Of a stretch of DNA of 47,833 nucleotides, positions 19,791-25,534 are shown piece by piece; position 1 is the first letter of the stretch; every line of letters starts with the position of its first letter. This DNA is from Halorussus amylolyticus. Lineage in GTDB: Archaea; Halobacteriota; Halobacteria; Halobacteriales; Haladaptataceae. The stretch spans positions 679,974-727,806 of the forward strand of contig NZ_ML974130.1 in NCBI RefSeq assembly GCF_004143485.2. Reading direction: 5' to 3'. The position numbers and the translations under genes are program-made. Under the pieces are notes generated by a model. The model searched no databases and had not been told where the DNA came from. It worked only from the letters and a program-made list of their open reading frames with translations.

Positions 19791-21500
19791 TTATCGGTCC
19801 ACCGACCCCAACACGATGTCGAGACTGCCGAGCGACGCCACCAAGTCGGGGACGTACTCGCCGGTCGCCATCGCCTCCAGCGAGTGGAGATTGTTGAAAC
19901 ACGGGCTCCGAATCTTGAACCGAGCGGGCTGAGAGGTACCGTCCGACCGAATGTAGACGCCCATCTCGCCCTTCGCGGCTTCGACTGCGCGATACACTTC
20001 GGTGTCGGGGTCGGGCTTGATAGTTCGAGGGACGTTGCTCTGGATGGTGCGTTCGTCTTCGGGCCAGTCTTCGAGCAGGTCGAGACACTGTTCGATTATC
20101 TTCGCGGATTCTTCGACCTCCTGCATTCGGACCAGCAGGCGGGCGTAGTTGTCGCCGTAGGGTTCGGTCACGACGTTCCAGTCGAGTTCGTCGTAGTAGC
20201 CGTACGGGTCGTCGCGCCGGAGGTCGTAATCGATGCCCGACGCGCGAGCGACCGGGCCGGTACAGCCGTACGCCTTGGCGGTTTCGGCGTTGATGACGCC
20301 GGTATCGACCGTCCGCTTCTGGAAGATTTCGTTGCCGGTCATCAGGTCGTGGTACTCCTCGACGTGTTCGGGGAGTTCGTCGAGGAAGTCCCGGACTTTG
20401 TCGAACCACTCCTCGCGGGGTTCGGGCAGGTCCCAGACGACCCCGCCGAGTCGGAAGTAGTTGAACATCATGCGCTGGCCCGTCAGGTCTTCGAGGATGT
20501 TCTGGACGATTTCGCGGTCCCGAACCGAGTACATGAAGATGGCGGTGAAGTCGCCGTACACGTCGAGCGCGAACGTCCCGAGCGCGAGCATGTGGCCCAT
20601 GATGCGGCCGAACTCGACCGCCATCGTCCGGAGGATTTGGGCGTACTCGGGCACCTCGATGTCGGCCAGCGCCTCGGCGGTCCGGGCGTACGCCCATTCG
20701 TTGGGCATGTTGGCAGTGTAGTCCCACCTGTCGGGGTACGGCATGATTTCGTACCGGTAGTTCTTGTCCTGACACATCTGTTCCTCACATCGGTGGAGGT
20801 AGCCGATGTCTGGTTCCACGTCGGCGACCTGCTCGCCGTCGAGGACGGTCTTGAGGTGGAGGACACCGTGGGTCGCTGGGTGGTGTGGCCCGATGTTGAG
20901 GAACATCGTGTCCGACCCCGAATTCGAATTCTCGTCCGCTTTCGACTGGGATTCGGTCCGGTGCTGGGTGTCGGTCAGTGGATTCACGTGCTCTTTCAGG
21001 GTGACGATTTGGGGCTTGTCTTGGTCGTAATCGAGGCCGAGGGGGTGGCCCTGCCACGTCTCGGGCAGGAGAATCCGCCGGAGGTCGGGGTGGCCCACGT
21101 ACTCGATACCCACGAGGTCGTACGCCTCGCGCTCGTGCCACTCGGCGGTCTTGTAAATCGGCGCGGCCGACTCGCTGACCGGGTTCTCCTTGTCCGCCGG
21201 AACGACCACGCTGAGTTCCTGACTCCGGTCGGCGTACTTCGTGAGGTGGTAGATGCTCTCGTAGCGGTCGGCGTACTCCTGGGCAGTCAGAAGCGAGAGG
21301 TGGTCGAACCCCGCCTCCCGCTTGAGCGTCCCGAGGACCGACTGGACCTCGTTCGGTCGTATCACGAATCCCTCGGCGTTGATGTGGTTCTCCCTGCTCG
21401 TCACCCGGTCGCCGAGCAGGGCTTCGAGTGCGTCGAAATCGACGTGCTCGACCTGCGTCTGTTCGGCTACTCCCGGTTCTGATTCCGATGTCTCGCTCAT
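19791..21500 (-). CDS. nuoCD: NuoCD fusion, complex I peripheral subunit, standing alone
   Basis: A 569-aa fusion of the NuoC (30-kDa) and NuoD (49-kDa) subunits of NADH-dehydrogenase-like complex I, as in haloarchaea. The NuoC part (~1-170) ends in REAYDLVGIEYVGHPDLRRI and LLPETWQGHPL. A Ser/Asn-rich linker (~185-200) follows, then NuoD with MFLNIGPHHPATHG (quinone-site His), GYLHRCEEQMC, NILEDLTGQRMMFNYFRLGG and the C-terminal DLVASLGSLDIVLGSVDR. It appears intact. Unusually, no other nuo genes flank it: upstream is a Q-rich protein and downstream the convergent sucD. It may be a second or relocated copy. Confidence 0.95.
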   Translation of the reverse strand: MSETSESEPGVAEQTQVEHVDFDALEALLGDRVTSRENHINAEGFVIRPNEVQSVLGTLKREAGFDHLSLLTAQEYADRYESIYHLTKYADRSQELSVVVPADKENPVSESAAPIYKTAEWHEREAYDLVGIEYVGHPDLRRILLPETWQGHPLGLDYDQDKPQIVTLKEHVNPLTDTQHRTESQSKADENSNSGSDTMFLNIGPHHPATHGVLHLKTVLDGEQVADVEPDIGYLHRCEEQMCQDKNYRYEIMPYPDRWDYTANMPNEWAYARTAEALADIEVPEYAQILRTMAVEFGRIMGHMLALGTFALDVYGDFTAIFMYSVRDREIVQNILEDLTGQRMMFNYFRLGGVVWDLPEPREEWFDKVRDFLDELPEHVEEYHDLMTGNEIFQKRTVDTGVINAETAKAYGCTGPVARASGIDYDLRRDDPYGYYDELDWNVVTEPYGDNYARLLVRMQEVEESAKIIEQCLDLLEDWPEDERTIQSNVPRTIKPDPDTEVYRAVEAAKGEMGVYIRSDGTSQPARFKIRSPCFNNLHSLEAMATGEYVPDLVASLGSLDIVLGSVDR

Positions 21501-21656
21501 TGTAACTCACACGGGGGTAGCGCGACTCGGCGGTCCTCGACTGTCGCGTACGCGCCCCCATTCCCCCGTCTGGAGTACCCGACTGACGGCAATAGGACTA
21601 CCGCTTGTCATCTTCTGACGGTCCGTCGAAAAAAGCGCGGAATCGGGTCGTCGGGC

Positions 21657-22241
21657 TCAGTACTGGGGCGTCTGCTCGCGCTCTTGGCCGCGCGCCCGGC
21701 CGCCGTGGCGCTGTTCCTCGTAGCCCCGGCCCTGCGACTGGCTCTGTTGGCCCTGTTCGTGCTGTTGGCCCTGCTGGCTCCCGTGCTGGCCCTGCTGGGA
21801 GTGGCGTTCGCCGCCCTGCTGGCTCTCGCCGCGCATCGCGGTCTGCTGGACCGGGCTGAAACTCCCCTCGGAGCTTCCGCCGTACTGGTTCTGCTCGCGC
21901 TGGCCCTGTTGTTGGCCGGATTGCTGGTGCTGTTGGCCCGACTGCTGATACCGACCTCCTTCGCCACCTTGCTGGTGGCGACTCTGCTGACCTTGCTGAC
22001 CTTGCTGGCCCTGCTGGCCGCGTCTCCGCCGACTTCCGTATCGGCGGCCCTGCTGACTCTGTTGGCCATGCTGACCCTGCTGTTTTTGCTGACCGTGTTG
22101 TCCGTGCTGACCTTGCTGGCCCTGCTGCTGGCTTCGTCCTCGCTCTCGTCCGCCTGAGGAGTACCGGTCTCGCTGGCTCCCCTGTTGGCTCTCTTGGTCG
22201 CGGTTGCGCCACTGCTCTCGGTTCGGATTCTGTTGTGTCAT
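21657..22241 (-). CDS. Q/G/R/H-rich low-complexity protein
   Basis: A 194-aa protein made almost only of Gln, Gly, Arg, Ser and His, with no Cys, almost no hydrophobic residues and a positive charge. This is the reverse of the acidic haloarchaeal norm. Repeated patterns such as QQGQQGQHGQHGQQ dominate residues ~38-85 and ~145-170, with more varied parts at the start (REQWRNRDQESQQGSQRDRY) and at GSFSPVQQTAMRGES. It resembles prion-like or RNA-binding low-complexity regions. Lack of stop codons over the whole frame and a plausible ATG support translation. It lies directly upstream of nuoCD on the same strand; role unknown. Confidence 0.7.
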   Translation of the reverse strand: MTQQNPNREQWRNRDQESQQGSQRDRYSSGGRERGRSQQQGQQGQHGQHGQQKQQGQHGQQSQQGRRYGSRRRRGQQGQQGQQGQQSRHQQGGEGGRYQQSGQQHQQSGQQQGQREQNQYGGSSEGSFSPVQQTAMRGESQQGGERHSQQGQHGSQQGQQHEQGQQSQSQGRGYEEQRHGGRARGQEREQTPQY

Positions 22242-22351
22242 TAGTCTCTCCCCCGTCGAACTACTCGCCGCGACTTTCCTTAGGTGTACTGGGCGGAGGC
22301 TGACAGAATCGCCCGACGGCGGCGAGAAGCGCTTCTTCGGCGCAGTTGGGC

Positions 22352-22359
22352 ACTCTTAA
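22352..22359 (+). promoter_or_regulatory. TATA-like box of the hisC operon
   Basis: ACTCTTAA lies 26-33 bases before the hisC ATG at 22385, which rules against the upstream in-frame start at 22346. Confidence 0.5.
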
Positions 22360-22384
22360 GGCGCGGCGCACACACTTCCCGGAC

Positions 22385-23458
22385 ATGGAACCACGGGACC
22401 TCTCTGCACACACCGTGTATCAGGCCGGACGGGGCGTCGAGGAGGTGGCCCGCGAACTCGGGCTGAACCCCGACGACCTCGTGAAACTCGCGTCGAACGA
22501 GAACCCCTTCGGCCCGAGTCCGGCCGCCGTCGAGGCCATCCGGGAGGCCGCCGCGTCGGCCAACTCCTACCCGAAGGCGTCCCACGCCGACCTCCGCGAG
22601 AAGCTGGCCGACCGATGGTCGGTCGCCCCCGAACAAGTCTGGCTCGGAAACGGCGGCGACGGCGTCCTCGACTATCTGGCTCGCGCCGCGCTCGAACCCG
22701 GCGACACCGTCCTCGTGCCGACGCCCGGCTTCGCCTACTACGGGATGAGCGCGCGCTTCCACCACGGCGAGGTCGCCGAGTACGAACTCTCGAAGGACGA
22801 CGGCTTCGCGCTCGACGCCGAGACGGTCCTCGACGCCTACGACGGCGAGCGCGTCGTCTACCTCACCAGCCCCCACAACCCCTCCGGCGGTCGCTTCTCG
22901 CTCGGCTCGGTCGAGACAATCGCCGACGAGACAGACGACCAGACGCTCGTCGTCGTGGACGAAGCTTACGGCGAGTTCGCCGACGCCCCGAGCGCGGTCG
23001 AACTCCTCGAAGGTCGCGACGATATCGCGGTCCTCCGAACGTTCTCGAAGGTGTACGGTCTCGCGGGCGTCCGGCTCGGGTACGGTATCGTGCCCGACGA
23101 GTGGGCCGACGCCTACGGTCGGGTAAACACCCCCTTCGCCGCGAGCGAAATCGCGTGCCGGGCGGGACTCGCCGCCCTCGACGACCGCGACCACGCCGAG
23201 AAGACGGTCGAGACCGCGGCGTGGGCGCGCGAGTACATCGCCGAAAATCTCGACGCGCCGACGTGGGAGAGCCACGCCAACTTCGTGCTCGCGGAGGTCG
23301 GCGACGGCTCGGCCGTCGCCGACGAACTCCAGCGCCGGGGTATCATCGTCCGCGATTGCACGAGTTTCGGTCTCCCCGAGTGCGTCCGCATCACCTGCGG
23401 GACCGAGGCCGAGACTCGAACGGCGGTCGCCGAGTGCAACGAGGTGCTGGCCGAGTGA
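22385..23458 (+). CDS. hisC: Histidinol-phosphate aminotransferase
   Basis: PLP-dependent aminotransferase of histidine synthesis, 357 aa. It begins MEPRDLSAHTVYQAGRGVEE. Class-II features in order: LVKLASNENPFGPSP, LGNGGDGVLDYLARAAL, VVDEAYGEFADAP (Asp/Tyr), TFSKVYGLAGVRLGYGI with the PLP lysine, and the C-terminal arginine region CVRITCGTEAETR. First of three genes joined by four-base overlaps. Its partners are unrelated to histidine, so the operon probably reflects shared expression only. Substrate specificity within the family is inferred. Confidence 0.93.
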   Translation: MEPRDLSAHTVYQAGRGVEEVARELGLNPDDLVKLASNENPFGPSPAAVEAIREAAASANSYPKASHADLREKLADRWSVAPEQVWLGNGGDGVLDYLARAALEPGDTVLVPTPGFAYYGMSARFHHGEVAEYELSKDDGFALDAETVLDAYDGERVVYLTSPHNPSGGRFSLGSVETIADETDDQTLVVVDEAYGEFADAPSAVELLEGRDDIAVLRTFSKVYGLAGVRLGYGIVPDEWADAYGRVNTPFAASEIACRAGLAALDDRDHAEKTVETAAWAREYIAENLDAPTWESHANFVLAEVGDGSAVADELQRRGIIVRDCTSFGLPECVRITCGTEAETRTAVAECNEVLAE

Positions 23459-24927: not shown

Positions 24928-24971
24928 GAATCGACCCGAAACGCGGTGTCGGGACGCCGCTCGCGGCGTGT

Positions 24972-24979
24972 CATTTAAG
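24972..24979 (+). promoter_or_regulatory. TATA-like box of the MBF1 gene
   Basis: CATTTAAG lies 25-32 bases before the ATG at 25004, which supports that start over the upstream in-frame start at 24968. Confidence 0.5.
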
Positions 24980-25003
24980 AGCGGGGACAGACTACCTCCG
25001 GGT

Positions 25004-25534
25004 ATGGTTCAGTGTGAGATGTGCGGTGCCGAGACGGGGTCGCCCACGACCATCAAGGTCGAGGGTGCCGAGTTGGAAGTTTGTGACAACTGTGCCGACT
25101 TCGGAACCGAGGTCAAGACCCAAGACGCCGGGTCCACGTCCACGAAATACTCGACTTCGTCGTCGTCGAGTTCGAGTTCCGGGTCGGGCGCGACGGGTTC
25201 GTCGGGCGCGTCGAGTTCCTCGCGGTCGCGGCGCTCGGACATGTTCGACGACATGGACGAAATCGCCCAGGACTACGACGACCGGATTCGGAACGCGCGT
25301 GAGGCCGCCGACCTGAGTCAGGAGGACCTCGCCAAAAGCCTCAGCGAGAAGGCGAGCCTCATCCGGAAACTCGAACAGGGGAGCATGCTCCCGAGCGACG
25401 AGGTCCGCAAGAAACTCGAAAGCAAACTCGACATCACGCTGACCGAGGGTGGCTCCGCCGACGACGAGGAGTGGAGCGGCGGCAACTCCACCGGGAGTTA
25501 CACTCTCGGCGACGTGGTGAAGCGCAAGGACTGA
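25004..25534 (+). CDS. Multiprotein bridging factor 1 (aMBF1)
   Basis: Archaeal MBF1, 176 aa. The N-terminal zinc ribbon has MVQCEMCGAETGSP and VCDNCADFG, four cysteines. A Ser-rich linker (~43-75) follows, then an XRE/Cro-type HTH with DYDDRIRNAREAADLSQEDL, AKSLSEKASLIRKLEQGSM and KLESKLDITL (residues ~90-155). In archaea this protein associates with the ribosome or the basal transcription machinery; in eukaryotes it bridges activators and TBP. Full length. Confidence 0.94.
   Translation: MVQCEMCGAETGSPTTIKVEGAELEVCDNCADFGTEVKTQDAGSTSTKYSTSSSSSSSSGSGATGSSGASSSSRSRRSDMFDDMDEIAQDYDDRIRNAREAADLSQEDLAKSLSEKASLIRKLEQGSMLPSDEVRKKLESKLDITLTEGGSADDEEWSGGNSTGSYTLGDVVKRKD

Follow-up and report, generated by a model that had tools for sequence, protein, structure and literature searches.

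A conserved glutamine-rich protein family of haloarchaea, predicted to be disordered, with a motif shared by tiny acidic proteins

The haloarchaeal cytoplasm is molar in KCl, and the proteins of these organisms are expected to be acidic. What, then, should be made of an open reading frame (ORF) in a haloarchaeal genome whose product would be a basic chain composed largely of Gln, Gly, Arg, Ser and His? The ORF in question lies in a stretch of 47,833 nucleotides from Halorussus amylolyticus (hereafter the window), and an earlier note, made from the letters of the DNA, had likened its translation to prion-like condensate-forming or RNA-binding regions. Here we ask whether this ORF is a gene and, if so, what a protein of this kind might do.

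A glutamine-rich ORF and its composition

The predicted 194-amino-acid product (Table 1) contains 65 Q, 38 G, 24 R, 19 S, 13 E, 9 H and 6 Y (34% Q, 20% G and 12% R) and no Cys, with as many as 37 Q+N in 80 residues, a pI of 11.07 and a GRAVY of -2.40. As a background we used 447,833 bases of the same genome (the window and 20 further stretches, about 12% of 3.78 Mb), in which a crude gene-calling script found 389 genes with a mean of 2.3% Q (SD 1.4, maximum 10.4%) and a median pI of 4.5. A high pI does not by itself set the ORF apart, because 27 of these 389 called genes, some of which may be miscalled, exceed pI 9. However, when all frames of the same bases were scanned for ORFs that start with ATG or GTG and contain at least one D or E, this was the sole ORF of at least 80 aa with more than 12% Q. 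Likewise, other haloarchaeal nuoCD loci (L020-L095, a set that includes the second-copy loci of some Halorussus) total 863,114 bases, in which every ORF of at least 100 aa, counted from its first ATG, stays at or below 15% Q. The composition is thus rare in the haloarchaeal DNA scanned, as the earlier note had proposed. Its description of a basic protein in an acidic proteome stands with respect to pI, but the net charge is just +10 over 194 residues. With a net charge per residue (NCPR) of only +0.05, the protein is basic by pI, yet the chain is mostly uncharged and polar.

The supposed absence of a hydrophobic core agrees with an AlphaFold2 model built from a five-sequence alignment, which contains no folded segment (mean pLDDT 43.9, pTM 0.11), and the protein is therefore predicted to be intrinsically disordered. 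Among the 18 Halorussus proteins described below no hydrophobic segment was found, the highest 15-residue Kyte-Doolittle mean being -0.23. Because no stretch is hydrophobic enough to act as a signal peptide, the Halorussus protein is probably intracellular.

Table 1. Coordinates of the ORF, its motifs and neighbouring genes in the window, and of proteins from genus g9 (locus numbers precede the coordinates)
Feature	Position	Strand	Evidence or remark
Q/G/R/S/H-rich protein, predicted disordered; complete ORF (ATG at 22241, TGA ending at 21657)	21657..22241	-	Translation; intact orthologue in 18/18 Halorussus; mean pLDDT 43.9
C-terminal conserved motif, residues 117-138 (QNQYGGSSEGSFSPVQQTAMRG)	21828..21893	-	Profile A2; shared with acidic proteins
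RRYGSRRRR internal element, residues 66-74	22020..22046	-	RYG enrichment across protein sets
N-terminal conserved motif, residues 26-34 (RYSSGGRER)	22140..22166	-	Alignment A1; pattern in 17/18 Halorussus
Ribosome-binding-like GGGGGAGAG, directly before the ATG	22246..22254	-	G-rich stretch in most Halorussus; putative function
Promoter-like block (GTCAGCCTCCGCCCAGTACACCTAAGGAAAGTC)	22272..22304	-	Upstream DNA alignment; putative function
hisC (histidinol-phosphate aminotransferase), divergent neighbour	22385..23458	+	Presumed gene name; positional marker, outside the system
nuoCD, second copy, downstream neighbour	19791..21500	-	Pfam PF00329 and PF00346; incidental
g9 Cys-containing protein	L208:3137-3844	-	
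g9 Cys-containing protein	L207:8169-8852	+	
g9 Cys-containing protein	L209:3593-4270	-	

Conservation and gene neighbourhood

All 18 Halorussus genomes searched carry an intact Q-rich frame that adjoins, and is divergent from, the gene we take to be hisC. The products range from 194 to 429 aa, the window's member being the shortest, and their composition is held within limits (Q 22-43%, AVILMFWC 3.5-6%, H 3-11%, pI 9.3-11.8). Their Q+N content of 24-44% is high over a long stretch, as in Q/N-rich prion-like domains, judged by content alone. The earlier note had anticipated orthologues with conserved ends around a variable number of repeats, and had tied the reality of the ORF to retention of its frame. 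Both are seen among the 18 genomes, where the ends are kept and the Q/G/H/R repeats that fill the space between them vary. The member in G017 (L119:221-1003, plus strand) is 43% Q, is filled with Q/P-rich sequence and has neither end motif, and runs of nine His occur in three members (L122, L116 and L127, from G016, G014 and G004, respectively). No convincing paralogue was found in the window's own genome, where the two other matches had E values of 0.2 and 0.6.

A frame of this kind could in principle lie open by chance in a GC-rich repeat of the CAG type, or be the shadow of a Leu/Ala-rich ORF that runs antiparallel to it. Repeats of 9 bases do occur, and the opposite frame, itself long, was the one picked by the crude gene caller. 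However, the sense frame is the only one that is free of stops in all 18 Halorussus, every other frame being interrupted in some or all members; the ATG, the G-rich site and the upstream block are preserved as well, and the motifs are conserved at the protein level. A non-functional ORF is contradicted by these 18 intact frames, and we consider it extremely improbable. As judged from these comparisons, the Q-rich ORF is a genuine gene that is conserved in one haloarchaeal family (Halorussus, Haladaptatus and Halomicrococcus). The Leu/Ala-rich ORF (window 21684-22157, plus strand) is its shadow. A caller based on GC3 chose part of this shadow (21705-22157), and annotation pipelines may consequently miss the real gene.

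The earlier note had also placed the ORF just upstream of an orphan nuoCD. This position is correct: 156 bases separate the ORF from the start of nuoCD, which lies downstream of it on the same strand. This nuoCD is a second copy, its counterpart lying at G000:C6, but the link is incidental. Although nuoCD adjoins the Q-rich ORF in 15 of 18 Halorussus, G001, G015 and G017 lack it there and have one nuoCD match each elsewhere in the genome. Two matches are present in 13 of the 18 genomes, three in G003, and three partial ones on short contigs in G011. In the three exceptional genomes a luciferase-like oxidoreductase frame lies within 1.7 kb downstream of the Q-rich gene instead, directly in G001 and G017 and beyond another ORF on the opposite strand in G015. 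An oxidoreductase of the same kind (Pfam PF00296, one copy tested) follows the Q-rich ORF in Haladaptatus. The simplest reading is that the second nuoCD was inserted after the Q-rich ORF, and we rejected a function by way of nuoCD on the grounds of this incomplete pairing. Elsewhere in the window, an HTH_3 (Pfam) helix-turn-helix protein (24968-25534, plus strand) has a long serine-rich linker, which is another low-complexity stretch.

Beyond Halorussus, an ORF starting with MTHH adjoins hisC in all nine genomes of the Haladaptatus group (g3). Eight of the products are intact, basic and Q/R-rich, with 17-29% R and an NCPR of +0.09 to +0.19; the ninth (G023, L254:1091-1411, minus strand) is broken by a frame change, which reflects either a sequencing error or real decay. 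In G018 (Halomicrococcus) the Q-rich ORF lies one gene further from hisC, past the oxidoreductase. Among 15 genomes of other families, no ORF of at least 60 aa with over 12% Q was found within 1.5 kb upstream of hisC.

Conserved motifs and their occurrence in tiny acidic proteins

In Halorussus the C-terminal motif (C-motif) takes the form NQYGG...SPVQQTxMR, and profile A2, which represents it, matches 17 of the 18 genomes and misses G017. The 17 members with both end motifs carry them 85 to 320 residues apart, and 12 of the 18 also have a middle module (QRHEVGQNQ...VHELSQHGGSGGQYTGH) that is absent from the window's member. Values of pN/pS are 0.18-0.22 for the C-motif (14 and 17 members), 0.19 for the N-terminal motif (17) and 0.10 for the middle module (12), all of them biased low because members were picked by amino-acid pattern, which lowers pN. 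Compared with shuffled sequences, the tripeptide RYG is enriched 10-fold in the 18 Halorussus proteins (24 seen, 2.4 expected) and over 20-fold in eight from Haladaptatus (31 seen, 1.3 expected), with 1 seen and 0.2 expected in the window protein alone. The upstream DNA of 18 Halorussus, 3 Haladaptatus and G018 could also be aligned. A block resembling GTCAG..CCGCCCAGTACACATAAGGAAA precedes the ATG in most Halorussus, and TAAGG is present in 21 of the 22 sequences, with TAAGC in L115.

Within the Haladaptatus group, profile A2 scores the C-motif in G022, G026 and G027. A weaker form (LSDVERTVIRGG) was read by eye in G020 and G024, and none could be seen in this way in G019, G021 and G025.

The C-motif recurs, as NQYGG...DAVEQTEMR and with nearly identical spacing, in tiny acidic haloarchaeal proteins such as MTDDSDQNDEGETQDENQYGGGDQDKDAVEQTEMREDDEAEERNEE. 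Such proteins are present in nine of 391 genomes of the class (G060, G070, G099, G104, G111, G191, G224, G344 and G404), representing five genera in three other families. In contrast to the Q-rich protein, they are only 46-121 aa long, have an NCPR of -0.39 to -0.48 (six measured), lack the Q/R-rich filling and reside in other gene neighbourhoods. In a search of 293 genomes of the order, 23 gave an A2 match with E up to 0.01 (17 Halorussus, 3 of the Haladaptatus group, G018, G104 and G111). Profile A2, built from Halorussus only, thus reaches acidic proteins of another family in G104 (E 1.9e-4) and G111 (0.0016), while its match in G018 (0.0067) extends over 18 residues only; these E values apply per genome, and all three are modest over 293 genomes. 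For this reason the link between basic and acidic proteins rests on a profile-profile test, in which hhalign compared the Halorussus set with the acidic set and returned a probability of 96% and a score of 39.9, as against a mean of 7.2 and a maximum of 15.3 for 200 column shuffles of the acidic set.

Other profiles gave additional matches. A4 and A5, both of which already included acidic members, hit 26 (E up to 0.05) and 19 (E up to 0.01) of the 391 class genomes, respectively, and the weak remaining matches were dropped after reading by eye. Profile A7, made from acidic members only, matched 13 of the 391 genomes and found three of the eight Halorussus in the sample (E 3.8e-4 to 3.4e-3), the window's own genome not being among them; at similar strength it gave the unrelated-looking G239 (0.0023), whose locus we read, and G232 (0.0053), both probably by chance. 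Profile A8, which represents the MTHH start, had seven matches in 108 genomes. Five of these were already in A8, and the remaining two, in G070 (0.0022) and in G005 (0.0059, far from its hisC locus), are weak.

Common descent of the C-motif in the basic and acidic proteins is likely on this evidence, with convergence as a possible alternative. Genus g9 presents a split arrangement, wherein G060 and G099, but not G070, carry a separate Q/G/H/R-rich ORF near the gene for the acidic protein. This ORF is divergent and about 0.5-0.6 kb away, and starts with MPHHQH or MTHHQH, much like its counterparts in Haladaptatus. The arrangement, present in two related genomes, suggests that motif and scaffold act together, whether fused or apart. 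In the same genus, a probably helical protein that contains Cys and has tails rich in Q, G and M is encoded next to what seems to be an isolated nuoB-nuoCD pair (nuoB was recognised by eye), some 2 kb away from the acidic motif protein; the one such protein tested had no Pfam match.

Possible functions of the protein

The reading that we favor, with a probability of roughly 0.4, is that the protein is a disordered Arg/Tyr/Gln scaffold that self-associates in molar KCl and carries a motif for docking a partner. Arg, Tyr (in the RYG elements) and Gln would provide the many weak contacts of a multivalent scaffold, molar KCl would strengthen these contacts instead of screening them, and the chain would thereby self-associate or concentrate its partners, with the short NQYGG...VQQTxMR motif docking one specific partner. 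If valency were tuned by length and repeat number, this would account for the drift in sequence and length alongside the retention of composition and motifs. Consistent with such a scaffold are the conserved frame, composition and motifs, the low pN/pS of the motifs, the RYG enrichment, the use of R and not K, and the disordered model. However, each Halorussus chain has only 3-11 tyrosines and a small net charge (NCPR 0.00 to +0.10), so its sticker valency may be too low, and the C-motif is missing in G017 and, by eye, in three genomes of the Haladaptatus group. A chain this polar and this close to uncharged may also just stay dissolved in salt without ever condensing.

Condensation at such salt concentrations has precedents, at least in the excerpts of the reports considered here. 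For FUS, phase separation sets in again once KCl exceeds 1.5 M, and at 2.7 M KCl the Arg-rich peptide PR25 forms condensates on its own (PMC7889641, in excerpt). Protamine undergoes high-salt reentrant phase separation through arginine contacts, in experiments that included hyaluronic acid (at 4 M NaCl) or left it out (PMC9705477, in excerpt), and for disordered proteins that are largely uncharged the same is described near 3 M salt (PMC13269793, in excerpt). The archaeal protein resembles FUS and other prion-like low-complexity domains of eukaryotic RNA-binding proteins in being Q/G/S/Y/R-rich, predicted to be disordered and low in hydrophobicity, a likeness of composition for which we claim no evolutionary link. 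It differs from them in its short elements. Among the 18 Halorussus proteins the FUS-type [GS]Y[GS] is rarer than expected (1 seen, 9.8 expected), its place being taken by RYG, whereas RGG (27 seen, 27.6 expected) and RG (135 seen, 134.2 expected) occur at chance levels. A condensate grammar of the FUS type was rejected on these counts. RNA binding of the RGG kind is likewise not supported by them. Moreover, no folded RNA-recognition domain was found above the Pfam or NCBIfam cut-offs or as a folded segment in the model.

Nucleic acids might nevertheless be bound in another manner, with Arg coating RNA or DNA, as in protamine or in an RNP, and Gln/Gly spacers keeping the chain flexible. The marked preference for arginine (661 R and 22 K summed over the 18 Halorussus proteins), the high pI and the still more Arg-rich, more strongly charged proteins of the Haladaptatus group would all be expected of such a binder. 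However, the low NCPR in Halorussus and the chance levels of RGG and RG argue otherwise, molar KCl should weaken binding that is based on charge, and no known nucleic-acid-binding family was matched. The Arg-driven condensation of protamine at high salt (PMC9705477, in excerpt) may have a counterpart in the archaeal protein, although the latter has a lower arginine share and a mostly uncharged chain. We therefore regard nucleic-acid binding as unlikely, and we place at a similarly low level the possibility that the protein is a hydrophilin-like stress protectant, a polar Gly-rich chain that would shield other proteins on drying or on dilution of the brine. Hydrophilins are described as high in glycine, very hydrophilic and disordered, and also as N+Q-rich (PMC4190154, in excerpt), and all 18 Halorussus proteins match in glycine and hydrophilicity (Gly 8-24%, GRAVY -2.1 to -2.5), the window's member being predicted to be disordered as well. 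Yet this class is defined by composition only, and membership would leave unexplained both the conserved, family-specific short motifs, one of them shared with acidic proteins, and the very high glutamine and arginine. A role in metal binding or storage appears less probable still. The histidine content, the nine-His runs and the enrichment of QHQ in Halorussus (103 seen, 35.6 expected) could each point to metal, but no such enrichment of QHQ appears in Haladaptatus (3 seen, 6.5 expected) or in the window's member (1 seen, 1.0 expected), the latter has no Cys, and neither hisC nor nuoCD gives any hint of such a role.

Returning to the scaffold, a broader proposal would be that haloarchaea possess a dedicated high-salt condensate system, comprising an Arg/Gln scaffold and a docking motif that are fused in the window's family or split in g9. 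We consider this distinctly doubtful.

Database searches gave no name to the protein. It had no match in Pfam or PHROGs and one in NCBIfam at E 0.99 (8.2 bits, with a cut-off of 325), and its relatives were likewise without family matches (five in NCBIfam, six in Pfam and four in PHROGs). Motif profile A4 retrieved nothing from PDB sequences up to E 1, Rfam gave no match up to E 0.1 on either strand of 21450-22500, and of 22 viral-contig stretches that fit a pattern in a search with profile A5, none encodes a relative. In the literature searched the protein is not described, though a paper on archaeal prion-like domains that lay outside this search may cover it; no paper in that literature pairs Halorussus or Haloferax volcanii with a glutamine-rich protein. 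Across whole proteomes, one survey of prion domains rich in Q/N made 22 predictions in 14 archaea (PMC3654983, in excerpt), and a review states that little is known about internal organisation of this kind in archaea (PMC7613921, in excerpt). What is new here, as far as sequence comparison can tell, is an unannotated, conserved family of predicted disordered proteins and the link of its motif to acidic proteins.

A conserved, nearly uncharged, R/Q-rich protein that is predicted to be disordered departs from the acidic rule of haloarchaea, and has to solve the problem of solubility by other means. A motif common to basic and acidic disordered proteins predicts a shared haloarchaeal partner. If the broader proposal of a condensate system is true, this would be a natural protein operating in the "reentrant" salt regime that has been reported from purified proteins, and if it condenses at molar KCl, reentrant phase separation in vitro would become a question of cell biology, in organisms that can be grown and whose relatives can be genetically handled.
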